37,349 bases of DNA from Myxococcales bacterium (GTDB taxonomy: Bacteria > Myxococcota_A > UBA9042). This document shows positions 3 to 28,641 of this stretch, piece after piece; the stretch's first letter is position 1, and every line of letters starts with the position of its first letter. The notes under the pieces are model-generated. The model worked only from the letters and a program-made list of their open reading frames with translations. It did not search any database and was not told where the DNA came from. The position numbers were made by a program, and so were the translations under genes. Location: the NCBI GenBank assembly GCA_023954815.1, contig JAGSHB010000043.1, forward strand, positions 1 through 37,349. Direction: 5' to 3'.

Positions 3-893
3 TGCGGCGACGGCACCTGCGCGCCTGGCGAGACCGCCAATACGTGCCCTCAGGATTGCAAAACGACGACGAACAACTGCGGCAACCTCAAGTGCGATGA
101 TGGCGAGACAAAGACCTCCTGCCCGTACGATTGCAGCCCATTTGCCGCTCAGATTTCAGCGTGCGCTCAGTCCAAATGCAGCGCTGATGCCGCGGCGTGT
201 TCCGCTCAACCCACCTGTGTCGCCGCGGTGGGGGCAGCGATTGTCTGTGTAGAGGCGTGCAAGGGCGAGTCGAACTGCATCGTCGGGTGCGCATCAAAGG
301 CAGGAAACGACGCCACTGCGATGAAGTTCCTCCTGTGCATCAACACCAACGGCTGCGTGCCGACCGGCCCGACCTGTGGCAACGGCAAATGCGAAGACGG
401 CGAGACCTCCTCGACCTGCGCCGCGGACTGTAAGCCTGCTGGTCCAACGTGCGGCGACGGCAAGTGCATCAAAGGGGAGACGTACAGCTCCTGCAAACAG
501 GACTGCGGCGGCAGCGGCGGTACGTTCAGCCAAAACACCTGTTGGGATAGCAAGTGCACAAAGGAGAGCGCTGCCTGCAAGGCGGACTACATCTGTTCAG
601 GATACATCGGCTGCATCAAAGCGGACAAAGATGGGGATGCGTGCGCGAAGCAACATGGGTGGACTGACAAAACCGACATAGATAACGGCGGCGACCTGCT
701 GGACGCTCTTCAGAAATGTGGCTGGAAGGCATGTGCGGACCCCAACGGCGCCAAGTGCAGCTCGCCGGGCAAAGACGGGGCCAAGAATCGGTGTGGTCAG
801 TACGACAGTACATGGCCCTGCAACTGCGACAGCGGGTGCACTAAATTCGGCGATTGTTGCTCGGACTATAAGGCTACCTGCCCTAGCGAATAG
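3..893 (+). CDS. Cysteine-rich secreted protein with C-terminal somatomedin B-like domain (5' end missing)
   Basis: The reading frame is open from the first bases, so the start lies outside the window; 296 codons and a TAG stop are visible. Four copies of a C-G-[DN]-x-x-C-x-x-GET-x-x-x-C-x-x-DC motif occur, two before residue 50 and two near residues 122-165, for example CGNGKCEDGETSSTC. Between them is a Cys/Ala-rich segment with regularly spaced cysteines. The end reads PCNCDSGCTKFGDCCSDY and follows the cysteine order of the somatomedin B fold (C-x-C-D-x-x-C ... D-C-C-x-D-Y ... C). The protein is almost certainly exported and disulfide-rich, probably on the cell surface; no enzymatic motif is visible. 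A binding or adhesive role is an inference. The next gene starts about 200 bases downstream on the same strand. Confidence 0.85.
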   Translation, partial: CGDGTCAPGETANTCPQDCKTTTNNCGNLKCDDGETKTSCPYDCSPFAAQISACAQSKCSADAAACSAQPTCVAAVGAAIVCVEACKGESNCIVGCASKAGNDATAMKFLLCINTNGCVPTGPTCGNGKCEDGETSSTCAADCKPAGPTCGDGKCIKGETYSSCKQDCGGSGGTFSQNTCWDSKCTKESAACKADYICSGYIGCIKADKDGDACAKQHGWTDKTDIDNGGDLLDALQKCGWKACADPNGAKCSSPGKDGAKNRCGQYDSTWPCNCDSGCTKFGDCCSDYKATCPSE

Positions 894-4000: not shown

Positions 4001-7000
4001 ATGGAGCAAGAAAGGCCAGTGGACCGCGCCGGCCGTCGTTCCCGGTACCAGCGCCGTTGGGCCCAAGGGTTGTCTGAAAAAAGGCGATTGTGGGGCCGAG
4101 GAGGCTTGCTTTGCGTGGAGTTGCGAGGCCAACAAGTGCGTGTCGACCCTCAGTAAAGACAAGGCCGCGTGCGACGACGGTGACCCGTGCACCACATCGG
4201 AGTTCTGCGCCGATGGTAGGTGCACAGGGGGCTCGGCCAAGTGTGATGATGGAAACCCCTGCACCATCGATCTGTGCGCGCCATCCTCGGGCAAGTGTAC
4301 GACCGCCAATAGCACCGCGATTTGTGATGATGGGAGCGCATGCACATGGCAAGACCGCTGCAAGGCTGGCGGCTGCGTCGGCAGCGTCAAAAGCTGTGAT
4401 GACGGCAACAGTTGCACGAGCGACAGCTGCGACAAAAAGACCGGAAAATGCGCCTCAAAGCCCACCTCCGACGGCGAGAAATGCAGTGACGGCGACGCCT
4501 GCACGGCCTCGGAGACGTGCAGCGGTGGTGTCTGTAAGAGTACAGCGTCGCCCAAGGTCTGCGCTCAAGACGACAACCCATGCACGCTGGCGGTCTGTGG
4601 TGGAGCGGCTAGTTGCCTCGATGTGCCACGGCCCAACGGTACGGCGTGCGGCGGCGACCAGATCTGCAGCTCAGGCGCTTGCACCACGCCTTTCGCGACA
4701 CAGATTTCAGCTGGTTGGGAGACGACCTGCGTGCGCAGACCGGGTGGCACGGCCATGTGTTGGGGCCGCGGCGGCCAAGGCGAGCGGGGCACGGGCGCCG
4801 TTGTGGACTCCTTCGCGCCACCGTCGACTGTCAAAGGCCTGACCGATGTCGTGCGCATCACCGCTGGTGCCTACGCTACTTGCGCGACGAGCAAGAGTGG
4901 CGGGGGCTATTGCTGGGGTTGGAATGGCGCCGGGCAGACAGGCAGCGGCGGCGCCGGCGGCAAGGCGCTGAGCCCGGTCGCGGTCAAGACCCTCAAGGGC
5001 GTGACAAACATCCAATCCGGCTACGGCTACGCTTGCACGACGATTGTAGGCGGTCGCGTCTACTGCATGGGCGCGAGCACCAAGGGTGAACGCAATGTGG
5101 TCTCGTCGGGGCTGGTCTCCACACCCAAGTCGTTGGCCGCAGTACCACAACTTACCAGCTTGTCGTCCATGAGTCGGTTTTCCTGCGGCATTGCGGAAGA
5201 CAGTCGGGTCCACTGCTGGGGGGACAACACCATCGGGCAGAGCGGCAGGGGGGGCTACTCTGCGACGGTGAAGGCTGCGCCGGTGTTCGGTCCCCTCAAA
5301 GCTGTGTCAGTCGATGTCGGCTACTATCATGCGTGTGCGTTGACACCGAAGGGGCACGTTTGGTGTTGGGGTTCCAACAGCTACGGCCAGCTCGGCGATG
5401 GCACGCAGATCCACAGTCCAAGGCCCGTCAAAGTCGCCATTTTGGATCAGGTGATCGCTGTCGATGTGGGCGGCAATCACTCTTGCGCGCTGCGTGCCGA
5501 CCACAGCGTCTGGTGCTGGGGGCTGTCGAATTCCGGTCAAACCGGCGCCAGCTACGACAAGAATGTTGTGCTGCCGACGCGAGTGGTGAGCGGCGGTGTG
5601 GCGCAAGTCAGCGCGGGGCTCACTCACACCTGCATCTTGACCTTGGCGGGTATCCCGAGGTGCTGGGGCTCCAATAAGTACGGCGCGCTGGGCATCGGCA
5701 AGACCTCCTGGGGCGTGACGCGTTCGCCGAAGACCGTCACCGGAGCCAAGTCGCAGCCGCCGCCGTCTTGCAATCAGGACAGCGATTGTAAAGGGGCCGG
5801 GCCCTGCGTGACGATTGTCTGCAAAAGCGGATCTTGCGCGCCAACGCCGAAGAAATCGGGCCAAAAGTGCAGTACTGGCAACGCCTGTATGACCGAAGGC
5901 AAGTGCCAGTCGGGTACATGTGAAGCTGCCTTTAAGTGCGACGACGGCAAGCCCTGCACCCTCGCCTCTTGCACGGGCGGGAAATGCGTCCAGAGCAACA
6001 TCAGCGCGCCTTGTGATGACGGCAATCCGTGCACCCTCAGCCAAGCCTGCGCCCAGGGCTCGTGCACGGCGGGTACTCCCAGAAATTGCAACGACGGCGA
6101 CCCCTGCACCACGGACGCTTGCGACAGTCTGACTGGCGCCTGTACCCACAAACCCGGCAGCTGCTCAGGAAGCACGCTCATCAGCGGCACCGTGACCTTC
6201 GACCATGTGCCGCTGCTCAACAAGCGTCAGGGCGGCATCAAGTTGGCCTACGACAAGAAGGTGAAGCTGCCCGCGCGACGGGTGTTGGTGCAAGCGATTC
6301 GCAAAGGCCAACAAGTAGCGCAGACGCACACGAACGATGCGGGGCAGTACGCCCTATCGGTGCCCAAGGGGCTGAAGGTGACGATTCGGGCCTTGGCTCG
6401 GGTTCGTATCGACGGCGCTGCCAAGGACGGAATCGGCGATGACAACTGCGATGGCGCGAGCTTCGATGTGCGCGTGGTCGACAACACAAACAGCAAGAGT
6501 CTGTATGTGCTGCAACCCTACGGCGAGATGACGGCGCCGAAGTCTGGGGTCAACCTGCACGCGGCGATGGTCTACAGCGGAGGCAAGTATCAAAAACGGT
6601 CGGCGGCGCCATTTGCGATTCTCGACAGCAGCTTGCAATCGATTGAGACGGCCTGTCAGGGTAAAAAGGACTTGAAGCTGCCCCTGCTCACCATCAACTG
6701 GAGCATCAACAACGCGCCGGTGTCGGGAGATAAGAAGAAGGGGCAAGTCGGCTCGGCGAATCACTTCACGACGGAGGCTGGCAAGCCGCAGATCTACCTG
6801 AAGGGGTTGGAGGACGTATCGACCGCCGAATACAGCCGCCACACCATCGCCCACGAGTTTGGTCACTACCTGGAGCGCTTCCTCTTTCGGTCGGACACCA
6901 TCGGTGGCAATCACGCTTTTGGCCAGATGCTGAGTATGCGCACAGCGTTTGGCGAGGGGTACGGCAATGGTCTCTCCGGCATGGTGTGGGGCGACCCTAT

Positions 7001-7829
7001 CTATGTGGCGTCGAGCGGTAAGGGGCAGGCGAGCGGATTCGAGGTCGACTTTGGCACCGTTCCGAGCGCCGGTGACGCCAGCTTCCACAGCGAAACCACC
7101 GTCGCTCACGTGCTCTACCACCTGTGGGATAGGCGGGATACCAAGGCCAACAGTGGCAGCTTCGACCGCATCTATCAGATCCTCTCGGGCCCACAACGGC
7201 AGAGCCCCGCACGCACCTCTCTGCTGACCTTTGTCGCTTGGTACAACGCGCTATTTGGCAGTGAAGCCGAAGGGCTGCGTGGGTTGATTGAGAACAACGC
7301 CCAGACGCCGCTGGACGCGGTCTGTCTGGGGTCCTGTAAGGGTAAGGGGGATCACGCTGACGTGTTCGATAGCAACAATGACTTGGGCCAAGCGTATGCA
7401 CCCAGGCTCCACTATCCGAACAACAAGAGCGCGCTGAAGTCGCCGGCATTTTGGCAGGCCTACCCGCTGCTCAAGCTTGGAATAAACAAGGCGAATGGGC
7501 ACGATTCCCTTGATTCTGCGGGCTACAAGGCGCCATTCAACAAGGCCGGCGGCGTGCGGCACTACCGGCTGGTCGGTACAGGGCAGAAGCTGACTGTGCG
7601 GCTCAAGAACGTGGTCGGCGGCGCCTGCAGCAGCGACTTGCTCAATCTGCTGGTCTATCAGCAGGCCAATACTGTGGCTTTCGATACGAAAAAGACCGGT
7701 AGCACGGCCGGGTGTCCGGTGGTGAGCTTCCAGTCGATGCCGGACACAGTCTACGTCGTGACGGTTCAGTTCCCCTATACAGACACAGTCACCGCGGTGC
7801 AGTCGTGGGATGTGGAGGTGTCGCAATGA
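1095..7829 (+). CDS. Giant surface lipoprotein: Cys-rich repeats, two RCC1 propellers, HEFGH metallopeptidase
   Basis: A 2244-residue protein. The ATG at 1095 is chosen because it directly precedes a basic n-region (RRSR), a hydrophobic core and a lipobox-like end (AGSSAC); a TTG at 1044 would add 17 unsuitable residues. Order: Asp/Ala/Gly-rich acidic linker to about 235; about 15 alternating CDDGNPCTDDSC and CSDGDACTTGD-type repeats to about 630; seven RCC1 motifs (CWGSNAYGQLG type) at about 636-986; more Cys repeats; seven further RCC1 motifs at about 1200-1551; a third Cys block to about 1690; a carboxypeptidase-regulatory-like beta sandwich (DAGQYALSVP); then a metallopeptidase with HEFGH at 1920-1924. 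Glu1954 in FGEGYGN is a possible third zinc ligand, as in gluzincins. Likely role: outer-surface protease with binding propellers. Substrate is unknown. The downstream gene overlaps its stop codon. Confidence 0.9.
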   Translation: MPLQSRRSRTAPWLALSLITVLFAGSSACSSETNSPGATADSLHTDVHDPDATLVGDTDDAAVGDVDVSDAADSEDGEDGADGEGGAQDTGAEEHTYPPADTGGSWVPDDTATSDGETLLDSADGTAAPDAEGDAAPLPDGASSDSASFDGGATDAVTTDAVGADMSQGADATETDASAQDADDDVTSDDGAGDLSDASISDDASVVGDTSVANDAAGAGADGASVDTVPLPPACTSNAACDDGNPCTDDSCAPDSGCVALANSATCSDGDTCTSSDTCASSKCVGKKVDCDDDNVCTDDSCVAQLGCVALPNQATCSDGDACTTGDQCDNKACKAAQKTVCDDGNACTSDACDKDKGCVSLPSQASCSDGDACTQSDVCKDKACVSGPKNACDDGNVCTTDACDSKSGCTAVANQAACQDGDACTSGDQCAQKACVGGKKLSCDDGNLCTDDSCDSKTGCKSAANQASCSDGNACTTGDSCVDKSCKGTEKTCTDNNPCTTDSCDTKKGCLSLPNSLTCTDDDACTTGDACSGGKCAGQTRNCDDTNPCTNDSCDKKTGCLHKTNSAPCDDGKPCTVDQCAGGKCVGIAKTCAGHACAASTCDTKTGACVATKVADGTACGGDRICVSGGCATPFATQVSASRQLTCALRSGGAVWCWGSNAYGQLGRGDTKSHAKGAATGVSKTRRLAVGMRHVCAVSDSGAVRCWGNSTYGQVGTGSKSSAVTTPKPVSGVPPTSKIHAGRYHTLAVTPAGVPYTWGANFYRTVWPTDGATRTKPVKFPDVSGAEKWGAGGYQSCTLTAGSLRCWGRNLSGELGFGFVSKYVLARQLVVQLSDVTQFGVGDYHVCAVRKTGEVRCWGSGTSGQLGHGTAASSSSPVVVKGLLDATHVSAGSTHSCAVRQTGQVVCWGRNTYGQLGDGTKTSRTTATPVKSGLLFKSVSAGTFHTCGLLRSGGVACWGYNTSWGELGWSKKGQWTAPAVVPGTSAVGPKGCLKKGDCGAEEACFAWSCEANKCVSTLSKDKAACDDGDPCTTSEFCADGRCTGGSAKCDDGNPCTIDLCAPSSGKCTTANSTAICDDGSACTWQDRCKAGGCVGSVKSCDDGNSCTSDSCDKKTGKCASKPTSDGEKCSDGDACTASETCSGGVCKSTASPKVCAQDDNPCTLAVCGGAASCLDVPRPNGTACGGDQICSSGACTTPFATQISAGWETTCVRRPGGTAMCWGRGGQGERGTGAVVDSFAPPSTVKGLTDVVRITAGAYATCATSKSGGGYCWGWNGAGQTGSGGAGGKALSPVAVKTLKGVTNIQSGYGYACTTIVGGRVYCMGASTKGERNVVSSGLVSTPKSLAAVPQLTSLSSMSRFSCGIAEDSRVHCWGDNTIGQSGRGGYSATVKAAPVFGPLKAVSVDVGYYHACALTPKGHVWCWGSNSYGQLGDGTQIHSPRPVKVAILDQVIAVDVGGNHSCALRADHSVWCWGLSNSGQTGASYDKNVVLPTRVVSGGVAQVSAGLTHTCILTLAGIPRCWGSNKYGALGIGKTSWGVTRSPKTVTGAKSQPPPSCNQDSDCKGAGPCVTIVCKSGSCAPTPKKSGQKCSTGNACMTEGKCQSGTCEAAFKCDDGKPCTLASCTGGKCVQSNISAPCDDGNPCTLSQACAQGSCTAGTPRNCNDGDPCTTDACDSLTGACTHKPGSCSGSTLISGTVTFDHVPLLNKRQGGIKLAYDKKVKLPARRVLVQAIRKGQQVAQTHTNDAGQYALSVPKGLKVTIRALARVRIDGAAKDGIGDDNCDGASFDVRVVDNTNSKSLYVLQPYGEMTAPKSGVNLHAAMVYSGGKYQKRSAAPFAILDSSLQSIETACQGKKDLKLPLLTINWSINNAPVSGDKKKGQVGSANHFTTEAGKPQIYLKGLEDVSTAEYSRHTIAHEFGHYLERFLFRSDTIGGNHAFGQMLSMRTAFGEGYGNGLSGMVWGDPIYVASSGKGQASGFEVDFGTVPSAGDASFHSETTVAHVLYHLWDRRDTKANSGSFDRIYQILSGPQRQSPARTSLLTFVAWYNALFGSEAEGLRGLIENNAQTPLDAVCLGSCKGKGDHADVFDSNNDLGQAYAPRLHYPNNKSALKSPAFWQAYPLLKLGINKANGHDSLDSAGYKAPFNKAGGVRHYRLVGTGQKLTVRLKNVVGGACSSDLLNLLVYQQANTVAFDTKKTGSTAGCPVVSFQSMPDTVYVVTVQFPYTDTVTAVQSWDVEVSQ

Positions 7830-9451: not shown

Positions 9452-10642
9452 ATGAAGACCTCGCTATCCCCCCACAACATTGTGACGTTCGCTGTCGCTG
9501 CCCTCTTATCGCTGTCCGCATGCGGAACCGACAACGGTTCGGCTGGTAGCACGGGTGGCACGTCCATCACGATCGAAGCCCTGCCCACGCTCACTGCGGA
9601 GGCCATGTGCGACATGCAGGAGCGCTGCGGCAAGGACGGCGTCTTTCCGATCACCTTCAGCTCCAAAGCGGCCTGCGTGGAGAACTTGAAGGCCAGCATG
9701 TTGAGCAGCATGGACGAGATCGCCGCGGTCAAAGACGGCAAGATGGTCTTCGATGGCAAGAAGGCCGCGGCGTGCATGGCGCTGATGAAGACCATGGCCT
9801 GCGGCGACCTTGACATGGACACCAACGAGACCTGCGACAGCGTCTTTGCGGGCACCATCGAGAGCGACAAAGCGTGTGACGAATCGAAGCACTGCGCCAC
9901 CGGTTGGTGCGCGGGCGCCAATGCGCCGAGTCAGGGCTGCCCTGGCAAGTGCGCCGCCGCCAAGAAGGAGGGCGAAGCCTGCGAGAGTCAGAGCAATGAC
10001 GAGTGCGCCGGAGCGTTGGCTTGCATCGACAAGAAATGCGCCAAACGTACGGCCGCAAAGGACGGAGAATCCTGTGCCGGCGGCCGCCCATGCGCCGCCG
10101 GATTGTACTGCCCGGAGACACCCGACCCGGTCTGCGCCAAGCAGGCGGCGACCGGCGAGGCCTGCAAGACGAGCAGCGCCTGTACAAAGGGCCTGCGCTG
10201 CGCTGCGGACAAGTGCGCCGCACCCGGCAAGGAAGGCGAGACGTGTAGCGCTTCGGCTGGCTTTGGTCCCAGCCCGGAGTGTGAAAAGGGCCTGTCATGC
10301 GCCATGCTGTTTGAGGGAGGCGTCCCCAAGAGCCAGACCTGCATGAAGAGCGCCGCACTGGGGGCAGCCTGCACCGCGGTGTTCGAGTGCGGCGGCTTCG
10401 ATCTGTACTGCAAGGCTAAGAAGTGCGAATCCCTGCCGAAGGTGGGTGAGGCGTGCGCAGACAAGGCTGATGCGCCGATGTTCCAGTGCCAATTCGGTCT
10501 CAAGTGCGGCACGGATGGCAAGTGCAAGGCCGACGGAGATGCCCAGGAAGGTGAGTCATGTGCCAGCGATAGCTGCGCCGGCGGCTTGAGCTGCAACGCC
10601 AAGCAGCTCTGCGAAAAGGCGGCTGCGCCCGTTTGTAGCTGA
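9452..10642 (+). CDS. Cysteine-rich lipoprotein (Dickkopf-N-like cysteine spacing)
   Basis: 396 residues. Start at 9452 is supported by GGAG eight bases upstream and by the signal peptide that follows: MKTSLSPHN, a hydrophobic core, and the lipobox LSAC followed by GTDNGS. Residues 30-130 form a helical Cys-containing domain (AEAMCDMQERCGKD), as seen in other myxobacterial lipoproteins. From about residue 140 to the end there are repeated modules of the form G-E-x-C-x-x-x-x-x-C-x-x-G-L-x-C-x-x-x-x-C, for example GEACKTSSACTKGLRCAADK. This resembles the Dickkopf N-terminal cysteine-rich pattern annotated in Myxococcota lipoproteins. Role on the cell surface is unknown. A hairpin with a T tract follows the stop codon. 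Confidence 0.85.
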   Translation: MKTSLSPHNIVTFAVAALLSLSACGTDNGSAGSTGGTSITIEALPTLTAEAMCDMQERCGKDGVFPITFSSKAACVENLKASMLSSMDEIAAVKDGKMVFDGKKAAACMALMKTMACGDLDMDTNETCDSVFAGTIESDKACDESKHCATGWCAGANAPSQGCPGKCAAAKKEGEACESQSNDECAGALACIDKKCAKRTAAKDGESCAGGRPCAAGLYCPETPDPVCAKQAATGEACKTSSACTKGLRCAADKCAAPGKEGETCSASAGFGPSPECEKGLSCAMLFEGGVPKSQTCMKSAALGAACTAVFECGGFDLYCKAKKCESLPKVGEACADKADAPMFQCQFGLKCGTDGKCKADGDAQEGESCASDSCAGGLSCNAKQLCEKAAAPVCS

Positions 10643-10655
10643 TTGTAAGGGGTTT

Positions 10656-10697
10656 GAGGCGTCGGTCGGCTTGTCGATCGGCGCCTCGTCTCGTTTT
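10656..10697 (+). terminator. Rho-independent terminator after the Cys-rich lipoprotein gene
   Basis: A 13-bp stem (left arm 10656-10668, right arm 10675-10687, including two G-T wobble pairs) with a six-base loop is followed by GTCTCGTTTT. It begins 14 bases after the TGA of the gene at 9452 and separates it from the convergent serine hydrolase gene. Confidence 0.65.
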
Positions 10698-10723
10698 ACG
10701 GACAGACTCGGCGCAGCCGGGAG

Positions 10724-12013
10724 CTAGGGATGCCGCCAGGGCAAGCGTCCACGCGGAACCAGCATCGTCAGCCGCTGTAAAATCCAGTACCAGCGGACCA
10801 TTCCAGGCGCCATCATCGGCTTGCCCGTGTTGAGGAAGGCCACAGCGAGCTCCCGTGCCGGGTCGGCATAAACCACCACGCCCGTAAAGCCGAGGTGACC
10901 AAAGGCGCCGCGGGTGTTGAGGCCAAAGAGCGAAAAACGCATCCCGCCCATCATCACGCCCAGGCCGTAGCGCATGGGAAAACCGAACGTGCCGTCGAGC
11001 TGCACTGGCGTCACATCGGAGATGGCGTTGTCGATGGTGCGCTGCTGTAAGACCCGCTGACCGTTGGGCCCGACGCCGCCGTCGAGCAGCATTTGCAAGA
11101 AGTCGCACACCTGCCGACCGGTGCCACAGATGTTGGCTGAAGGCAGCACAGCCGTGAGGAACTCGGGCGTGTTGGTCAGGCGCACCGCCGTGTCCAGATC
11201 GAGACCAATGTTGCGTTCGAACACATCGGCCATGAGGCGCGGGGCGGCGAGACCCGTGTACGCATGCTTGGCCACGCGATGGACTTGGTCAGCAGCGACC
11301 CCATACGTCAATCCGCTCAGCCCCGCGGGCCCAATGAGCCGGGAAGCCAGCAGCTCCTGCAGGCTCTTGCCGCCGACCTGCTCGGCGATCCGTTGCAGCA
11401 GCACCCAGCTCGTCACCGCGTGATAGGCGTGGCGGCGGCCCGGCTCCCACTTCGGCTTCAGCTCATAGAGCGACTCCCAGGGCACCTGTCCGGTCTGCAG
11501 CGCCGCCTTCAGGTCGATGCCCGTCGGCATGTCCGGGATGCCCGCCGTGTGATTGAGCAGGTGCCGCACGCGAATGTGGCCCTTGCCGTGGGCTTCGAAC
11601 CCGGGCAGGTAGTGGCACACTCGCTTGTCGAGGTCGATGAGATGATCCTCTGCCAGCGCGTGGATGAGCATCGCCGTGAGGATCTTCGTCGCGCTGAACA
11701 GATTGAAGGGGGTATCGAGACCGACCACCTCCCCCGGCGGCTCTCCTGGCTGGTGACTCACATGACCAATGGTACGGTCGAGCACACAGCGCCCCTTATG
11801 GAAGACCGTCAGCCCCACGGCAGGGTGCAACCCGCCCGCGTAGAACTGGACGGTTTCGCGCCATAACCCCTCAAAATCAAGGTTAGACGGGCTCTCTTGG
11901 CCTATCTTCGTCAACGCATCCGTGTCGCCTGTGGGCAGGGTGGTCTCGATGCGCGCCAGCCACTGTTCGGGGCTACGAAAGAGCTGGCGAACGGCGCGGC
12001 GCACTGGACTCAT
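10724..12013 (-). CDS. Serine hydrolase, class C beta-lactamase / class VIII esterase family
   Basis: 429 residues, the usual length for this family, with no signal peptide, so probably cytoplasmic. The nucleophile motif is S-x-x-K in NLFSATKILTAML at about residue 107. The second motif has Tyr in HAYHAVTSW, the YHA variant common in esterase-like members. The third is H-x-G in FGHLGFTGVVVYADP near residue 370. Members hydrolyse esters, small peptides or beta-lactams; the cytoplasmic prediction and YHA variant favour an esterase or peptidase over a resistance enzyme, but the substrate cannot be told. It is last in a three-gene - strand set, 42 bases after the SRPBCC gene. Confidence 0.9.
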   Translation of the reverse strand: MSPVRRAVRQLFRSPEQWLARIETTLPTGDTDALTKIGQESPSNLDFEGLWRETVQFYAGGLHPAVGLTVFHKGRCVLDRTIGHVSHQPGEPPGEVVGLDTPFNLFSATKILTAMLIHALAEDHLIDLDKRVCHYLPGFEAHGKGHIRVRHLLNHTAGIPDMPTGIDLKAALQTGQVPWESLYELKPKWEPGRRHAYHAVTSWVLLQRIAEQVGGKSLQELLASRLIGPAGLSGLTYGVAADQVHRVAKHAYTGLAAPRLMADVFERNIGLDLDTAVRLTNTPEFLTAVLPSANICGTGRQVCDFLQMLLDGGVGPNGQRVLQQRTIDNAISDVTPVQLDGTFGFPMRYGLGVMMGGMRFSLFGLNTRGAFGHLGFTGVVVYADPARELAVAFLNTGKPMMAPGMVRWYWILQRLTMLVPRGRLPWRHP

Positions 12014-21750: not shown

Positions 21751-22854
21751 CGCGGGTCTCTGTTGTTTTTTGTTTTCTTCTTTCAAGCGCTCTCCCAACT
21801 TGTCGGCTCAGGACTCGTTTTGTTTCGAGCTGCCTCATTGGCGAGGCGTTTGCTCGGCGTCGGCGCTGCGGCGACGACGATGACCCAAGATGCCTTGTCA
21901 GGGGGCAGGTGTTGTCGGGGTCTCACCCATATGCCCACCCCGCCTGAAAACGGCTCTAGCGGGCTTCCAGGGCCATTTGCGGGCATTTTGTCTTGCAGAA
22001 TGGTGTAAATTTGGGCTCGCGCTGTTGACCCTCGGGCCACACGCCAGCTTGCTGTGGTAGATCGGCGATTCGTATCGGCACCTTTGGCGCAATCACGTCG
22101 TGCCTCGCGCAGCCAAGTATGTAGATAGTTGTCACCCGCGGCCCGCCAGCGAGCTTGGCGCCTGGGCAGAGCCCATGCACCGCGGGTGCTCGCTTGACGT
22201 GTTGGCATGGCGCTGTGGCGGGCGCCGCGAGGTCATCGCGCTGATTGAATGTGCCGCAGTCATCGACAAAATCCTGAATCATCTCGAGATATCCACGGAG
22301 CCGCCGATGTTTCATCGGCCAAGGCCGCCACCCGACACATGCTCCCAGTGCCCAGTCGACCCGGCCGAACCGTGGGATGAGCCTGACCCCCGAGTATGAG
22401 GAAGACGAGCGTTGGTCGGTCAGCGCGTAGCCGGCAGCCCTCGCTGACCTGCTATGGGAAAACAAGGCCAAAGCCCAACGACGCTCAGACCTCAGCGGGC
22501 GTGCGGCCATTCGCACGACAGCACCCAAACGCCTCCATCGGCACGACAGGGCTCGGTTCAGAGAAAGTCCGTGGATGGAGGTCAACGCAACATGGTGGTT
22601 GCGCTGGGCAACACTGCGGCCGGCGCAGCGCACGCAGGTGTGAAGTGGGCGGCAGCTTCAACTACGGGAACTCCATCTCTTCAGCCAGACACCCTCACGC
22701 AGTAGTTGGACACCGAGCCCATTGCCGGAGGGACGCCAGCGACCAGGGATGATGTGTGCCTGGACTATTTGTATTTCGCAAAGGTGACAAAAGGTTACGG
22801 CCGTTCTTCGTCGTTCATCATCAGGGTGCGGTGTTCATCAGGGTGCGGTGTTCA
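21751..22854. other. Gene-poor region with transposase remnant
   Basis: No intact gene is supported in this 1.1-kb stretch. It begins with a T-rich run (21763-21785), possibly the transcription end of the oxidoreductase operon, though I find no clear hairpin. The only recognisable coding trace is the decayed IS91-type transposase C-terminus described separately. A long - strand frame (21956-22633) mirrors it and has shadow-like Arg/Cys-rich composition. The 17-bp tandem repeat begins at 22818. Confidence 0.6.
22100..22399 (+). pseudogene. Remnant of the C-terminal end of an IS91-family transposase
   Basis: In this frame, from about 22150 on, the translation WAEPMHRGCSLDVLAW, RCGGRREVIALIECAAVIDK and ILNHLEI follows the conserved C-terminal end of IS91-type (Y2) transposases: W-A-x-L-x-R-x-F-x-x-D-V-L-x-C-P-x-C-G-G-R-M-R-x-I-A-x-I, then VI-x-x-IL-x-HL. 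The first two ribbon cysteines (CPRC) are lost: the fragment has W-R-C in their place. The rest of the transposase, including the catalytic tyrosines, is absent. The fragment ends at a TGA after a Pro-rich tail. It marks a past insertion in the gap between the oxidoreductase and stressosome genes. Confidence 0.6.
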
Positions 22855-22877
22855 TCAGGGTGCGGTGTTCATCAGGG
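22818..22877. repeat. 17-bp tandem repeat, 3.5 copies, across the 3' end of the Cache-HAMP-STAS gene
   Basis: Three exact copies of TCATCAGGGTGCGGTGT start at 22818, 22835 and 22852, and nine bases of a fourth begin at 22869. The stop codon of the - strand gene (22855-22857) lies inside the third copy. Because 17 is not a multiple of three, each added copy shifts frame. Confidence 0.95.
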
Positions 22878-24687
22878 AGATACCCTGCTCAAGGGTGCGC
22901 AAGGTGACGAGGTCGCGAAATGGTGTATCGAGGTCTGCGAGTGTGGCTGCAACTTGCGGACGCATGCCAGTCAAGATGACGCGGGCCCCGATCAGATCAG
23001 CTCCCTTCGCCAGTTGCGCCAGGAGATGGGCATCGGCGGCCTCGAGCGTGGGTACGCCGGTGATGTCGATGATGGCGAAATCTGCCTGGGAGTCGTGCAA
23101 ACTACGTAGCAAATCAGTCCGCAGTTGAGCGAGTCGCCCGGCATCGAGGACCCCGACCAACGGCAGCACCAGGGCCCGATCTCCGAGCGGAATAATCGGG
23201 ATCCGAAGCGCCTCAATTGCGGCCTCTTGTCGTCTCACCAACTCTCGGATCGACACTCTCATGTGCTCAAACTCACGTGAGAGATCGCCAATTTCATCTT
23301 CACGTGAGGTCTCCACGGGTTGGTCGAGCTCCCCGCGGGACAGCGCCGCCGCCTTGCTCGCGAGTTCTTGCACTGGCCGAACGATGGTGCGTGACATCCA
23401 GACAGCGGCCAGCATGATGATCCCAATTGCGAGTAGCACCAGCAGCAACAGAAGATTCCTCAGTCGAGCCGCTGGCGCGAGCGCCTCACTGCGGTCGATC
23501 TCGGTAACCACTCGCCAAGACGTTCCCCCGATCGCGACCGTCCGCCACGTCGCCAGAACCTCACGGCCACGTGCACTCACGGTCGCGCCCCGTCCGCGGC
23601 CACTTGCGGCCGTCATCTGCCTTACGGTGTCGTCGAGTTGAAGGATGCCCACCGCGGTCTTCTGCCGTTCGATTTGCGCGACCGCCTTGCCACTGACGCC
23701 GTGACTCCGCAGCTGAGCAATGAATGCATCGCGATCCGTCAACAGGAATCGACTCTCACTGCGGAAGCGATGATCAGGCCCAATGGCGAACGTCTCACCG
23801 GACGCTCCCAGACCGACATCCGCCCAGCGACGTCCATTTGTCATCAGGTCGCTGATCCGACGAATTGGCGTTTGCACCGCTACGACACCGATCAGCTTGC
23901 CACGCCGACGAATCGGTGCGGCAATGAACGACGCCGCTGCACCATAAGACGCGCCGTAGGGAGCGAAGTCTTCGAAAATCATCTCCCGGTGACCAACCTC
24001 TGCCACCGCCGCACGGAAGACGGCTGCCAACCCCGAGTTACGCCAGGGGCCCGTCGTCAGGGATGTGCCAAAATCGACTTCCTTTGAGACTGAGTATACC
24101 ACCCGGCCGTCTGGCGCGATGAGGAATAGGTCGTAGTAGCCAAACTGACTTTGAACGAGGCGCAACGATGGATGGAATCGTTCATGGGCGATGTCATAGG
24201 TATCTCCCGTTCCGCTGCTGTCCAACATCGCCTTGCGACCCGTCGGGAGAGGGTTTCGCCGAATCCATTGGTCCTGCATGCGCTGAGCAATCGGGTCTGT
24301 GGGCCAATAGGCGTTCATCGCGGGGGCTGCAGTCCCGAGTTCCTCGAAATGCGGTAGAAACTCTGACGCATAGTGCGCCTTTAGAGGGGCGAGGTCAGGC
24401 GTTGAGCCACTGGCGAGGGACGCCACCGCAGGTGTGAAAGCGCCCATGGCAGAGACCACAGAAGGATCAGCGGCCAAGGTGACGAGGTGGTCGTCGATGG
24501 TCTGAAAATACGCGCCCAGCTGCGCCGCTTTCAGCTCGGCGACGGCGCCTAAATGCTCGTAGGACTGCAGGGTAAGCTCGTCGTTAGCACTGTAATAGGC
24601 AGCTCCGACGACCCCCGCCGATGTCAGCGCGGCGAGGGTGGTGAAGAAGATGACAATGGTCTCTCGCAATCCGATTCTACCGAACAT
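22855..24687 (-). CDS. Membrane sensor of the stressosome: Cache - HAMP - STAS (RsbR-type) protein
   Basis: 610 residues, ATG at 24687 with AGGAG six bases upstream, 16 bases after the RsbU-like gene. A transmembrane helix at about 9-30 and another at about 412-432 bracket a periplasmic double-Cache-like domain of some 380 residues (YYDLFLIAPDGRVVYSVSKE and LIGVVAVQTPIRRISDLM are typical). A HAMP linker follows (RPVQELASKAAALSRGELDQ, DEIGDLSREFEHM), then a C-terminal RsbR-like STAS domain (IPIIPLGDRALVLPLVGVLD, AIIDITGVPTLEAADAHLLA, LTGMRPQVAATL). It should bring an extracytoplasmic signal to the stressosome. The residue aligned with the first RsbR phospho-threonine (VVDT in RsbR) is Ala at about 550. 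There is no kinase or methyl-accepting domain. Confidence 0.88.
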   Translation of the reverse strand: MFGRIGLRETIVIFFTTLAALTSAGVVGAAYYSANDELTLQSYEHLGAVAELKAAQLGAYFQTIDDHLVTLAADPSVVSAMGAFTPAVASLASGSTPDLAPLKAHYASEFLPHFEELGTAAPAMNAYWPTDPIAQRMQDQWIRRNPLPTGRKAMLDSSGTGDTYDIAHERFHPSLRLVQSQFGYYDLFLIAPDGRVVYSVSKEVDFGTSLTTGPWRNSGLAAVFRAAVAEVGHREMIFEDFAPYGASYGAAASFIAAPIRRRGKLIGVVAVQTPIRRISDLMTNGRRWADVGLGASGETFAIGPDHRFRSESRFLLTDRDAFIAQLRSHGVSGKAVAQIERQKTAVGILQLDDTVRQMTAASGRGRGATVSARGREVLATWRTVAIGGTSWRVVTEIDRSEALAPAARLRNLLLLLVLLAIGIIMLAAVWMSRTIVRPVQELASKAAALSRGELDQPVETSREDEIGDLSREFEHMRVSIRELVRRQEAAIEALRIPIIPLGDRALVLPLVGVLDAGRLAQLRTDLLRSLHDSQADFAIIDITGVPTLEAADAHLLAQLAKGADLIGARVILTGMRPQVAATLADLDTPFRDLVTLRTLEQGISLMNTAP

Positions 24688-24703
24688 TGCGGTCTCCTAC
24701 GCC

Positions 24704-26377
24704 CTATGGGGTCTGGGTCTCGACTTCCATGACGATGCGAACTTCGTTCCGCTCGACCACTCTTCGATAGCTGACTTCATTCATCATCTGCCGTACGAGG
24801 TGAATGCCCAACCCACCGACCACTCGCTCCTCAAGTGAGGCTGATGTGTCCGGCGCAGCGATCTCCAGTGGGTTGAATGGCTTGCCGTCATCGGAGATTG
24901 TGCAGACGACGAAGTTGGCCCGGTGGTCGATCCGCAGACCGATGGGATGTGCCTCGCTATCGTCGTAGCCGTACATGATCGAGTTACTGAGTAGTTCATC
25001 AAGCACCATGAACAACCGGCCTTGCGACCTCTTCACGACCTGACGTTCGCTCAAGAAAGTGGCGACGAGTGTGCGAATCCGCCCGATTTCAGAGAGATCG
25101 TTTTGGAGTTCGACCGACAACGTCGCCGACTGCGCCAAGCTCGCTCCGGCGTAGCTCAGGCACAATAGGGTGATGTCATCTGCCTGTTCGGCGGCGCCGG
25201 CATAGCGCATGACGTCGTCGATTACGTCGTCGGCCACTGCGCGCACGGCGTGCGACGACAGTCCGCCAAGCAGGGCGACAAGCCGGTCGTCGCCGTAGAG
25301 CGCACGGTCGGTATTCATCGCCTCGGTGACCCCGTCTGTGAACAGAAACAGCACATCGCCCGGCTGCAACGTGAACTCATCCTCGCGATAGGCCAAGCCG
25401 TCCATGGCACCGACGACCGGCCCGTGTCGGCGCTTGAGAACCTCGGTCGACCCATCTGAGCGCAGCACATACGGCGGGTTATGTCCGCCGTTCGTGTAGA
25501 GCATCCGCCCGCTGGGAATATGTAGAATACCCAGCCAGAGTGTCACAAACATGGCGTTTTCATTGCCGTGTTCGAGTTCTTCATTGGCGTGGGTAACGAT
25601 GCTGGCCGGGCTGGGGTCCATCGCCCCGCGTGACTTTAGTAGGGTCTTGGTGACAGCAGCGAACAGCGCGGCCGGCACCCCCTTACCCGACACATCGCCG
25701 ATGACGATGCAGAGGTGATCTTCTGAGACCAGGTAGAAATCGTAGAAGTCGCCCCCGACCTCCCGCGCGGGTTGTAGGGTCGCGAAGATGTCGAACTCCG
25801 AACGCTCCGGAAACGGCGGAAACACCAGCGGCAGGAGGTTGCGCTGAATGTCACGCCCGATGTTGAGCTCGCTCTCCATGCGCTGCTTGTCGGACTTCTC
25901 TCGCCGCAGGCGCTCAAACGAGGCTTCCAACTCTCGGTTGGTCGACGTGAGCTCGGACATGAGCAGCTCGCGCCCTTTCTCCATGATGATCGACTCGCAC
26001 TTGGCCAGCATGGCTGGGCTCGGCGGCGGAATCGACAGCGTGCGAGAGAACGCTCGCACTCCTGGTTGACCGGCGGGAAGATGGCTTGTGCCGTCGGTCA
26101 GGTTGATGATGCGCTGCGCGACGTTCGCAACATTGTCATCATGAAAGTCCAGACAGATTCGCAGCCCGCTCGGGGAGTGCGCCAATCGGACGACAAGCCG
26201 AGGGTCTGGCACGTCGGCTGTAGGCGTCATGTGCCGACCGATCTCCGACGTTGCGGCTGCTAGGCGCGTGGCCGAAATTTCATCGACACCGAGCGCATCC
26301 GCCAGCTTGAGGATCTTCCGTCGCGCCTCGCGGACCGCGCTTCGACCGTGGATTGGCACTGTTCCGAGCGTGTTCAT
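24704..26377 (-). CDS. RsbU-like tri-domain phosphatase: degenerate RsbT-like ATPase - SpoIIE/PP2C - RsbW-like ATPase
   Basis: 557 residues. The ATG at 26377 overlaps the TGA of rsbX (ATGA). Residues 8-110 resemble an RsbT-type HATPase (AVREARRKILKLADALGVDE, TSEIGRHM), but the N-box Asn is His and no clear G1/G2 boxes are seen. Residues 130-185 are a coiled coil (LTSTNRELEASFERLRREKS) leading into the PP2C/SpoIIE domain, which has Asp210 in EVGGDFYDF, Asp228 in IGDVSGKG, Asp348 in FTDGVTEA and ADDITLL, all metal ligands present. Residues 425-550 are an RsbW/SpoIIAB-like kinase domain with Asn465 in LDELLSNSIMYGY, ISDDGKPFNP and GGLGIHLVRQMMN. Expected role: RsbT-activated dephosphorylation of an RsbV-type STAS protein, combined with the opposing kinase in one chain. 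Confidence 0.92.
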   Translation of the reverse strand: MNTLGTVPIHGRSAVREARRKILKLADALGVDEISATRLAAATSEIGRHMTPTADVPDPRLVVRLAHSPSGLRICLDFHDDNVANVAQRIINLTDGTSHLPAGQPGVRAFSRTLSIPPPSPAMLAKCESIIMEKGRELLMSELTSTNRELEASFERLRREKSDKQRMESELNIGRDIQRNLLPLVFPPFPERSEFDIFATLQPAREVGGDFYDFYLVSEDHLCIVIGDVSGKGVPAALFAAVTKTLLKSRGAMDPSPASIVTHANEELEHGNENAMFVTLWLGILHIPSGRMLYTNGGHNPPYVLRSDGSTEVLKRRHGPVVGAMDGLAYREDEFTLQPGDVLFLFTDGVTEAMNTDRALYGDDRLVALLGGLSSHAVRAVADDVIDDVMRYAGAAEQADDITLLCLSYAGASLAQSATLSVELQNDLSEIGRIRTLVATFLSERQVVKRSQGRLFMVLDELLSNSIMYGYDDSEAHPIGLRIDHRANFVVCTISDDGKPFNPLEIAAPDTSASLEERVVGGLGIHLVRQMMNEVSYRRVVERNEVRIVMEVETQTP

Positions 26378-26973
26378 TCGTTCACCCGAATGGCCACACA
26401 AGTCGCGTCATCAAAATCCGATGAAAAGCGCCGAAGCGCCGTGTTCGCAATGGTGCGTGGGGCGTGATAGGCCATCTGCGGATAGTCGGCGATGTTAAAG
26501 TTGCTGCTGACTCCGTCAGTGTGGAACAGCCAAACGTCGCCGGCACTCATTGGTACCACGCGGACCGGAGGCCGGGAGTAGCGCTGTCCCACGATGCCCG
26601 GCGCGCTTGGCAACGACGTGCTCGTAGGAAAGACACGACGCGCCGCAACATTTCCGACGCCACAATACCGAACGCTACGTGTGTCGATGTCGAACTTGGC
26701 CACGCCGAGCACGCCGCCGATTTCGTCTTTGAGCGCTGCGTCAATCTCGTCAAAGAGCTCCAACAGCGGGAGCTCACACTTGCTCGACAGGACGCGCTTC
26801 GCACGATTGGCCGCGGCGTGCGCGCGGGGGCCGTGACCCAAGCCGTCGAATAGCGCGACGACGATGACGCCCGGCAGTTCGTTTACCCACGCCAAGTCGC
26901 CGCTGACAGATTGCCCCAGGCACTTGCGGCCCGATGCGAACCACGAAATGGGCGTCGTCGTCGCAGGACTCAT
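26374..26973 (-). CDS. rsbX: RsbX-like serine/threonine phosphatase (stressosome feedback)
   Basis: 199 residues, the same as B. subtilis RsbX. The ATG at 26973 overlaps the TGA of rsbT, and its own TGA overlaps the next ATG. It is a minimal SpoIIE/PP2C-type phosphatase: GQSVSGDLAWV, VVALFDGLGHGPRAHAAANR, GDVWLFHTDGVSSNF and DDATCVAIRV carry the expected metal-binding Asp residues. There is no regulatory domain. RsbX removes phosphates from RsbS and RsbR to reset the stressosome after activation. Position between rsbT and the RsbU-like gene agrees with RST-X gene orders in other phyla. Confidence 0.9.
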   Translation of the reverse strand: MSPATTTPISWFASGRKCLGQSVSGDLAWVNELPGVIVVALFDGLGHGPRAHAAANRAKRVLSSKCELPLLELFDEIDAALKDEIGGVLGVAKFDIDTRSVRYCGVGNVAARRVFPTSTSLPSAPGIVGQRYSRPPVRVVPMSAGDVWLFHTDGVSSNFNIADYPQMAYHAPRTIANTALRRFSSDFDDATCVAIRVNE

Positions 26974-27368
26974 GGGAGCCAACTCTCGATAGTCACAACC
27001 GTGCCCTTTCCGACCTCGCTTGAGAGTTCGAATGAGTCGACCATGCGCTTGACCCCAGGTAGCCCGAGCCCGAGGGTGCCACTGCTTGAGTAGGAGTCGG
27101 CCATAGCCAGGGCGACATCTGGGATGCCAGGACCTTTGTCCGAGCAGATGACCTTCAGTCCGACCTGTGATCCGCGTGCGAGGGGCATGAACTCGATTCG
27201 GCCTTTTTCTGCGTACTTGAGGACGTTGCGCAACAGCTCAGACACGGCGGTTTGAAACTTGCGTGCGGCCGTCGCGGATGCGCCCATCTCAAGGAGCAGC
27301 CTGCGTGCCTCGAATGTGGCCAGCAGCAGCTCCTGTTCGGAACCGACACGCATGCGGGTCCTGGTCAT
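26970..27368 (-). CDS. rsbT: RsbT switch kinase (HATPase / GHKL family)
   Basis: 132 residues, typical RsbT size. Motifs are complete: VSELLRNVLKYAEKGRIEF (N box), CSDKGPGIPDVALAMADSYS (G1 and lid), TLGLGLPGVKRMVDSFELSS (G2), GKGTVVTIESWL. RsbT phosphorylates RsbS and RsbR on signal, leaves the stressosome, and activates the RsbU-type phosphatase. It overlaps rsbS upstream and rsbX downstream by four bases (ATGA at both ends). Confidence 0.95.
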   Translation of the reverse strand: MTRTRMRVGSEQELLLATFEARRLLLEMGASATAARKFQTAVSELLRNVLKYAEKGRIEFMPLARGSQVGLKVICSDKGPGIPDVALAMADSYSSSGTLGLGLPGVKRMVDSFELSSEVGKGTVVTIESWLP

Positions 27369-27748
27369 TGTTGCTGCCTCTGAGCTCGCAGTTCGGCGAT
27401 CATGTCAAAGCCGTGGTCGAGATCCCGGCCCACTTGAAAAGGAAGATCAAGCCCAAGCTCGACCATGGAGGCCACCAGCCCCGCCGCGAGCCCTGTGATG
27501 ACCAGCTGCACACCGAGCAGCTGGGTCATGCTGAGGGTGGCCTTGAGTGAGGCAAACTCTTGCGAATCGATGACACGAAGTCCCGCCAAACTCACAATGA
27601 CGCTGTCTGCGCCCGTGTCACGAACGAAGGTGAGCAGATCACTCCGGAAGCGGGCCAGCGTCGCGTCCGTCGGTTCGCCATGGAAGGAAACCTGCACGCA
27701 CCCGCGGGACACCTGCATGAGGAGCCGATTGTCGGCGCCATCGCTCAC
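27365..27748 (-). CDS. rsbS: RsbS stressosome scaffold (STAS domain)
   Basis: 127 residues, a single STAS domain. The GTG start at 27748 overlaps the TGA of rsbR (GTGA). The phosphorylatable serine of RsbS is kept: Ser62 in GLRVIDSQEFASL aligns with Ser59 in IDSF of B. subtilis RsbS. Other family features are LARFRSDLLTFVRDTGADSV and VITGLAAGLVASMVELGL. RsbS with RsbR forms the icosahedral stressosome core that holds RsbT. The use of GTG rather than ATG at a coupled overlap may set the RsbS:RsbR ratio (inference). Confidence 0.93.
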   Translation of the reverse strand: MSDGADNRLLMQVSRGCVQVSFHGEPTDATLARFRSDLLTFVRDTGADSVIVSLAGLRVIDSQEFASLKATLSMTQLLGVQLVITGLAAGLVASMVELGLDLPFQVGRDLDHGFDMIAELRAQRQQQ

Positions 27749-28641
27749 CGCTGCTCCTCCGATACTGTGCGTACACCGATGCGGTCAAACGCTAGCGTCA
27801 GCGCCTGCATGAGCGTTCCCGTCGTCACGACGGTTCCCACGTCGATGCCAAGTTCCACAATGGTTTCGGCGATGGCCGGAGACACGCCCGACACGATGCA
27901 CTCGCAGCCCATCAGCCGTGTCGCGCGAGTCACCTTAATCAGGTAGTTCGCGACCGCAGTATCGACGACAGCGACGCCGCTGATATCCATGATGAACACG
28001 CGACTGCGTGTGTCGGAGATCTTCATGAGAGCGCCGGACATGATGTCCTGAGCACGTCCCGAGTCGATAATCCCGACGATAGGCAGCATCAGTACACCGC
28101 GCCAGATCTCCGTAACCGGCGTGGACATCTCCAGCAACGCCTTGCTCTGCGACGCGACACGCTGGTTGTCATATTCACTGTACGCTAGCGCGACGATTGC
28201 GGTGTCCATGTGCACGACCTTGCTGATCGCGCGCAAGGTCGCCGGCGCCTCTGGCGTGTCCGCAACGGTCATATTCAGCAACAGATGCACCCGGTTCATC
28301 GAGCAGAAATAGGTGAACAGAGGCAGGCCGATTCGTGCGTGAGTCGTGCCGACTCGAATTCGATTCTCAAAGTAGGTCTGATCAAAATGAGCGTCGAAGA
28401 TGGTGTCGATGTACCCACTTTGCAGTTTCACCAGTCGACGTTGAGTGTCGGGGTCATCGACAAACTCTTCGTACTCTGGCTGGGTTCGCAGCCAAACGTA
28501 GAAACTCTCTACCACCTCGTCGCGCTTCGAACGCGCGTATTTTCCCCAATCGGCTAGCCGCTGAACCTCTTCTTCATTCAGCAAGAACTGGTTGGTGATG
28601 GCAGCTGGGTCCAGATTGTCGAGGGCCGCTACGTTGTTCAT
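27745..28641 (-). CDS. rsbR: Globin-coupled RsbR (haem sensor - STAS)
   Basis: 298 residues; ATG at 28641 with GAGG five bases upstream. Residues 15-165 form a protoglobin / globin-coupled-sensor domain: VESFYVWLRTQPEYEEF, RRLVKLQSGYIDTIF and RIRVGTTHARIGLPLF, where His101 is the expected proximal haem ligand and Phe47/Tyr48 lie in the distal B-helix region. Residues 175-290 are the STAS domain, with LMLPIVGIIDSGRAQDIM and MDISGVAVVDTAVANYLI. Thr228 in VVDT aligns with Thr171 of B. subtilis RsbRA, and Thr260 in AIAET with the second site. Globin-coupled RsbR proteins that bind haem and sense O2 are known from Vibrio stressosomes. It is the first gene of the operon. Confidence 0.93.
   Translation of the reverse strand: MNNVAALDNLDPAAITNQFLLNEEEVQRLADWGKYARSKRDEVVESFYVWLRTQPEYEEFVDDPDTQRRLVKLQSGYIDTIFDAHFDQTYFENRIRVGTTHARIGLPLFTYFCSMNRVHLLLNMTVADTPEAPATLRAISKVVHMDTAIVALAYSEYDNQRVASQSKALLEMSTPVTEIWRGVLMLPIVGIIDSGRAQDIMSGALMKISDTRSRVFIMDISGVAVVDTAVANYLIKVTRATRLMGCECIVSGVSPAIAETIVELGIDVGTVVTTGTLMQALTLAFDRIGVRTVSEEQR

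Follow-up and report, generated by a model that had tools for sequence, protein, structure and literature searches.

The subject of this analysis is a six-gene operon on the minus strand of a 37,349-nucleotide stretch of DNA from a Myxococcales bacterium (NCBI GenBank assembly GCA_023954815.1, contig JAGSHB010000043.1, positions 1 to 37,349; hereafter the window). The genes, designated R, S, T, X, U and C, occupy positions 22855-28641 (Table 1). They probably encode a stressosome of the globin type whose output has been rewired, in which the kinase T acts through a bifunctional protein, U, on an RsbV protein and an effector cassette, and not on a sigma factor. The linkage of this system to the effector, a phosphatase-family IMPase and a channel, instead of to a stress sigma factor, suggests that the stressosome switches an effector directly and not transcription.

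Protein U joins a phosphatase to its own RsbW-like kinase domain (Pfam SpoIIE and HATPase_c_2), as an earlier note on this DNA, made from the letters alone, had correctly described. The structure that it matches best is the RsbU-RsbW part of Rv1364c (PDB 3ke6). A PP2C-RsbW fusion is already known from that protein, and the N-terminus of U is the new part. By sequence, this N-terminal domain (U_N) is a degenerate RsbT-like pseudokinase heading output proteins. A profile built from seven U N-termini matches RsbT proteins with E-values down to 4.5e-9, and it also matches the PP2C outputs of cyanobacterial stressosomes and the histidine-kinase outputs of relatives. An hhalign comparison of U_N with the RsbT family, a set that includes some RsbW-like rows, gave 96.4% over 112 columns. 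In the structural model of U (mean predicted local distance difference test score, pLDDT, of 80; mostly 74-90 in U_N), the predicted order of strands (E) and helices (H) in U_N is E-H-H-E-E-H-E-E, matching the fold expected of an RsbT-like domain. None of the ten U_N-type domains compared retains the N-box Asn, the DxGPG box or the GLG box. Measured against RsbU, U has the PP2C/SpoIIE catalytic domain, by Pfam and by its metal motifs; the four-helix RsbT-binding N-domain of RsbU is absent from U, where the N-domain is RsbT-like by profile and predicted secondary structure. U_N is a candidate route by which RsbT could reach outputs that lack RsbU_N.

The remaining parts of the proposed pathway were found elsewhere in the same genome, a draft of 6.44 Mb in 314 contigs (97% complete, 2.7% estimated contamination) that was searched family by family. 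The earlier note had remarked that no RsbV or free RsbW lies in the window, which is true; the genome nevertheless carries one RsbV and an IMPase-fused RsbW. The search that it had proposed, for a STAS protein with the RsbV phospho-serine, returned a single protein on contig C116. This is the sole free RsbV-like STAS protein of the genome, the other STAS matches being SulP-type or permease proteins by their reading frames. It keeps the phospho-serine in an alignment with Bacillus references, so that both an RsbV with phospho-serine and an RsbW kinase (IMPase-RsbW) are present. On one side of the rsbV gene is that of the IMPase-RsbW fusion, and on the other that of a TCAD9/APH protein, truncated where the contig ends. 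The genes for IMPase-RsbW, RsbV and effector are preceded, on their own strand, by genes of the OmpA family and genes with a FecR domain (L071, G000 C116, 3230-6505).

The ends of C116 and a second contig, C117, overlap by 348 bp (98.3% DNA and 100% protein identity), and joining the two completes the effector at 852 amino acids (aa). It consists of an N-domain, a TCAD9/APH-like kinase (motif HGDLNFAN) and a NUDT9/TRPM2-like C-terminus. The C-terminal part of the effector family matches the solved structures of human NUDT9 (3e-25) and TRPM2 channels (8e-21 to 1e-15), and the C-terminal ∼250 aa align over the NUDT9-homology region (PDB 1q33, 6co7, 8sr7), in agreement with the length of the solved domain. 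The Nudix box looks degenerate by inspection, and ADP-ribose binding or hydrolysis is a candidate function of this domain. No solved relative was found for the N-domain; an isochorismatase-like fold, considered from sequence motifs, was unsupported. The effector was not filed as a defence system, PADLOC and NCBIfam having given no assignment. Behind the effector, C117 carries genes for an ammonium transporter, a P-II protein, a channel with a cyclic-nucleotide-binding domain (on the opposite strand) and a CHASE2-PP2C protein. The last of these, a CHASE2-SpoIIE phosphatase near the effector (L072, G000 C117, 4915-7047), could provide this RsbV with a second input. Tetranucleotide correlations with the window (0.91 for C116 and 0.82 for C117, with 0.87 for the operon itself) are compatible with, though no proof of, a common origin of the three pieces in one organism.

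In other genomes, where genes were called from open reading frames and profile matches, operon and cassette genes stand together. A Gemmatimonadota metagenome-assembled genome (MAG) has the order C-R-S-T-X-U-V-channel-effector-IMPase (L133), and two further loci of that phylum read C-R-S-TX-U-channel-effector-IMPase (L205) and U-V-effector-IMPase up to a contig end (L206). An Ignavibacteria MAG has V-C-R-S-T-X-U-PAS/STAS-W-effector-IMPase (L104). From other families of the window's own phylum come channel-IMPase-effector-R-S-T-X-U-C-V (L183) and channel-IMPase-effector-R-S-TX-U, followed by a contig end (L184). Altogether, U and the effector share one locus in six other genomes from at least three lineages. 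Among 379 genomes of the window's phylum, a U matching from its N-terminus is found in three, and a full-length effector in just these three, a coincidence with a chance of 1.1e-7 if genomes were independent, which holds only roughly. Only full-length effector matches were counted, PF19974 alone being a poor marker with weak matches in 286 of the 379. The effector is also rare in the other two phyla (3/346 genomes in that of L133 and 1/395 in that of L104, starting genomes included).

The proposed mechanism begins with R (globin) and S, which would form the core that holds the kinase T. Protein C may bring in an outside (Cache) signal and would itself not be phosphorylated at the usual sites, and X would reset phosphorylated R and S. 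Once released, T may bind U via U_N by homotypic pairing, and the helical linker would then activate the PP2C domain of U. The RsbW kinase of U would oppose this phosphatase, such that U alone sets the phosphorylation of the single RsbV on C116. Unphosphorylated RsbV is predicted to free no sigma factor and to act instead on the IMPase-RsbW fusion and the 852-aa effector, with a cyclic-nucleotide-type channel gene nearby. The sequence itself shows the parts, the homology of U_N and the loss of its motifs, the absent acceptors of C, the conserved linkage and the co-occurrence; the signalling steps are inferred from them. A wider claim is put forward tentatively, as quite possible: that the end product of the stressosome is not transcription and that it switches, via U and RsbV, the cytoplasmic effector (kinase plus NUDT9-homology domain), the IMPase and probably the channel, and also that PP2C and histidine-kinase outputs in several phyla receive RsbT via an inactive RsbT-like N-domain.

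Several observations weigh against a direct line from stressosome to effector. RsbW partners vary: an IMPase-fused RsbW occurs only in the window's own genome and a free one in L104, and elsewhere the only RsbW seems to be that of U. A Halieaceae MAG (L096) encodes R-S-TX-U-RsbV followed by a Na/Pi cotransporter (5942-7531), and no effector homologue was found in that MAG; therefore, other targets are possible for the U-RsbV unit. The cotransporter, directly after U-RsbV, is another candidate non-sigma target. The structural model of the effector was unusable (mean pLDDT 36) and was discarded. In the window's own genome, moreover, the stressosome operon and the effector cassette lie on separate contigs, and several other sigma-70-family matches are present, so that the target could be a sigma factor that escaped recognition.

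The sigma-70-family matches belong to an explanation in which an ordinary stressosome and partner switch operate: U would act on RsbV, and RsbV would take RsbW off an alternative sigma factor elsewhere, with the cassette a mere neighbour or a part of the regulon. The R-S-T-X-U-V-W domain set is indeed that of the SigB pathway, and PP2C-RsbW fusions of the Rv1364c kind are known. However, no SigB/F/G-class sigma factor exceeds the cut-off in the genome (best match 139 bits against a cut-off of 234), none of the genes listed for the single-locus relatives L104, L133, L183 and L205 was seen to encode a sigma factor, and the effector, the IMPase and mostly a channel gene are co-located in several phyla. 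This explanation is accordingly considered rather unlikely, and the earlier suggestion that the end target could differ from SigB probably holds.

The separate contigs are what would be expected of two independent systems, with the window's stressosome acting on some other target and the C116/C117 genes forming a stand-alone switch driven by the adjacent CHASE2-SpoIIE phosphatase, which could serve RsbV. The genome has one RsbV only, however, and this arrangement would not account for the way U and effector share a locus in six other genomes, nor for their exact co-occurrence in 3 of 379; it is judged improbable. The rewired output, running from T through U and RsbV to the effector cassette, remains the preferred reading.

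The sixth gene had been taken for a co-encoded membrane sensor. It does encode a membrane protein; instead of a generic sensor, however, C has the appearance of an RsbR-class protein that is anchored in the membrane and would not be phosphorylatable at the usual sites. Its linker and STAS region (aa 479-601) matches the YtvA family at 3e-20, far under the 250-bit cut-off of the full-length model. At neither RsbR phospho-acceptor position does any of the five family members aligned have Ser or Thr; Ala, Pro or Arg stands there instead. The dCache-like match reaches 42 bits, just below the cut-off of 45, and no solved homologue of the Cache domain was found at E below 0.4, hence no ligand is proposed. 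A chemoreceptor-like gene that follows U by chance, with no stressosome role, would fit the 16-base gap without overlap between U and C, the relatives of the Cache part among chemoreceptors and histidine kinases, and the lack of C at the L096 locus (L184 and L206 end before C could show). Yet four full-length C homologues (34-48% identity) lie directly beside other stressosomes, with a 4-base overlap with U in L183 and with R in L133, and the STAS domain is of the RsbR/YtvA class, making a chance neighbour very improbable. We infer that C sits inside the stressosome particle. A 17-base unit, ATGAACACCGCACCCTG, occurs in three tandem copies at about 22822-22872 (minus strand), spanning the 3' end of C including the stop codon; its copy number could vary.

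The core proteins carry the features of their families. R has an N-terminal sensor, a C-terminal STAS domain and both RsbR phospho-acceptors, and these acceptors (in IDS and VDT) are kept in every locus of an alignment that also held S, RsbV, C and Bacillus references. T adjoins R and S and has intact ATP motifs in a motif alignment, with the N-box (Asn48), DxGPG and GLG. Judged by these domains and motifs, the R-S-T genes qualify as an RsbRST module. The phospho-serine of RsbS is kept in the window but lost in 16 of 20 stressosomes with a globin RsbR, the window's and 19 others (Ser in 3, Thr in 1); of 88 stressosomes that have no globin RsbR, 87 keep it. Many globin-type stressosomes must therefore signal without the RsbS serine. 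In Vibrio brasiliensis RsbS, the B. subtilis sites are not conserved (PMC4976288).

Variants of the core were also seen in relatives. An RsbT-like domain is fused to RsbX in L056 (7252-8265), L059 (7171-8181), L066 (4267-5298), L096 (2820-3890) and L205 (13058-14197), and in some of these loci a free RsbT is encoded as well. In L104, the locus with the globin R and the Cache C also encodes a further RsbR-class protein, equipped with a PAS sensor (10283-11143), which suggests a mixed-sensor stressosome.

The layout of the operon is as the earlier note had given it. All six frames are open, four junctions overlap by four bases, the fifth is the 16-base gap, and Pfam assigns, in gene order, protoglobin and STAS; STAS; HATPase_c; SpoIIE; SpoIIE and HATPase_c_2; and dCache-like, HAMP and STAS domains. 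The complete, translationally coupled R-S-T-X core was likewise described correctly. The overlaps are not sequencing artefacts, because L183, in a genome of another family of the same phylum (G055), has the same R-S-T-X-U-C order, each of its five junctions overlapping by 4 bases. The remaining doubt, that the order might break after rsbX in all relatives, was borne out for only some of them. In genomes of the same genus and family, R-S-T-(X) is followed by a (hybrid) histidine kinase after X or T; G055 retains the exact order, and L104, L133 and L205 retain it except that C stands upstream of R. In a phylogenetic tree, R, T and X of the window group with those of L183/L184 (support 1.0), apart from the same-genus histidine-kinase type (L057), and on this tree the idea that R-S-T-X is the genus' own core was rejected. 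The module thus seems to have a separate history, of which transfer is one reading. What the earlier note missed is the RsbT-like pseudokinase domain of U, the RsbR class of C, and the RsbV and effector cassette on C116/C117.

Table 1. Genes, junctions, domains and sites of the operon, in coordinates of the window.
Feature	Residues (aa)	Position (nt)	Strand	Evidence or remark
rsbR (R)		27745..28641	-	protoglobin + STAS (Pfam)
rsbS (S)		27365..27748	-	single STAS (Pfam 3e-7)
rsbT (T)		26970..27368	-	HATPase_c 1e-11; motif alignment
rsbX (X)		26374..26973	-	ATG at 26973; single-domain SpoIIE/PP2C phosphatase (Pfam SpoIIE 1.5e-8)
U	557 in total	24704..26377	-	ATG at 26377; RsbT-like pseudokinase + helical linker + PP2C + RsbW-like kinase
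C		22855..24687	-	membrane protein; dCache-like + HAMP + RsbR/YtvA-class STAS
R/S overlap GTGA		27745-27748	-	exactly 4 bases
S/T overlap ATGA		27365-27368	-	exactly 4 bases
T/X overlap ATGA		26970-26973	-	exactly 4 bases
X/U overlap ATGA		26374-26377	-	exactly 4 bases
R protoglobin sensor	19-156		-	Pfam Protoglobin 9e-24; His101 in conserved H-A-R-I-G motif
R STAS	175-267		-	Pfam STAS 1.6e-12
R phospho-acceptor	Ser194	28060-28062	-	site alignment
R phospho-acceptor	Thr228	27958-27960	-	site alignment
S phospho-serine	Ser62	27563-27565	-	at the Bacillus RsbS phospho-serine position (alignment to a Bacillus RsbS)
U N-terminal domain (U_N)	1-118	26024..26377	-	RsbT-like, no ATP-binding motifs; N-box Asn replaced by His49
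U helical linker	about 121-181	25835..26017	-	model helices 121-132, 136-160, 163-181, partly low confidence
U PP2C domain	219-408	25154..25723	-	Pfam SpoIIE 1e-52; GGD, GDVSG, TDG, ADDIT present
U RsbW-like kinase domain	425-549	24731..25105	-	Pfam HATPase_c_2 9e-21; N-box Asn465, G1/G2 motifs present
C HAMP	430-482	23242..23400	-	Pfam 2e-15
C STAS	503-586	22930..23181	-	Ala516 and Ala550 at the two RsbR phospho-acceptor positions

The targets of Gram-negative stressosomes and the access of RsbT to outputs without RsbU_N have been left open (PMC9237108), and the window locus offers a testable answer to both, proposing that docking goes through an RsbT-like pseudokinase and that the target is a conserved effector cassette. 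If this is true, the inactive N-domain would explain how RsbT reaches such outputs, a TRPM2-like NUDT9-homology domain and a channel gene would come under a stress hub in bacteria, and a complex that is normally cytoplasmic could receive outside signals through an RsbR-class protein that is membrane-bound and non-phosphorylatable.

Among known systems, Rv1364c of Mycobacterium tuberculosis, like U, is a single chain with both an RsbU-type phosphatase and an RsbW-type kinase. A PAS sensor stands at the front of Rv1364c, whereas the front domain of U is RsbT-like and its gene lies inside a stressosome operon. With the SigB stressosome and RsbU of B. subtilis and Listeria (PMC12143880), the window system shares the R-S-T core, the X reset, a PP2C output with a helical linker, RsbV and RsbW. 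The RsbT-binding domain of RsbU is a four-helix bundle, in contrast to the RsbT-like domain of U; the window's genome, in addition, has no SigB-class sigma factor over the cut-off, and its PP2C and RsbW are fused. In B. subtilis, RsbT activates RsbU by making the linker a coiled coil (PMC12143880), and the helical linker of U, partly modelled at low confidence, is found at the same place.

A dual serine kinase/phosphatase that controls a STAS protein, with a target that is not a known sigma factor, is described in SypE/SypA of Vibrio fischeri (PMC8256260). It is a precedent for a dual enzyme of the U/RsbV type, although neither a stressosome nor a NUDT9-like effector is described there. Compared with NUDT9 and the TRPM2 C-terminal domain (1q33, 6co7, 8sr7), the effector's copy follows a TCAD9/APH-like kinase. 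The globin-coupled stressosomes of V. brasiliensis (PMC4976288) and V. vulnificus (rsbRSTX with D1/D2; PMC9237108), like that of the window, combine a globin RsbR, RsbS, RsbT and a single-domain RsbX with a variable output gene. Most globin-type outputs have no detectable RsbU_N, and how RsbT reaches them was left open (PMC9237108); outputs of the window type carry an RsbT-like domain in its stead. In the window, a pseudo-RsbT/PP2C/RsbW protein and a membrane protein of the RsbR class make up the output, which is linked to an RsbV-effector cassette.

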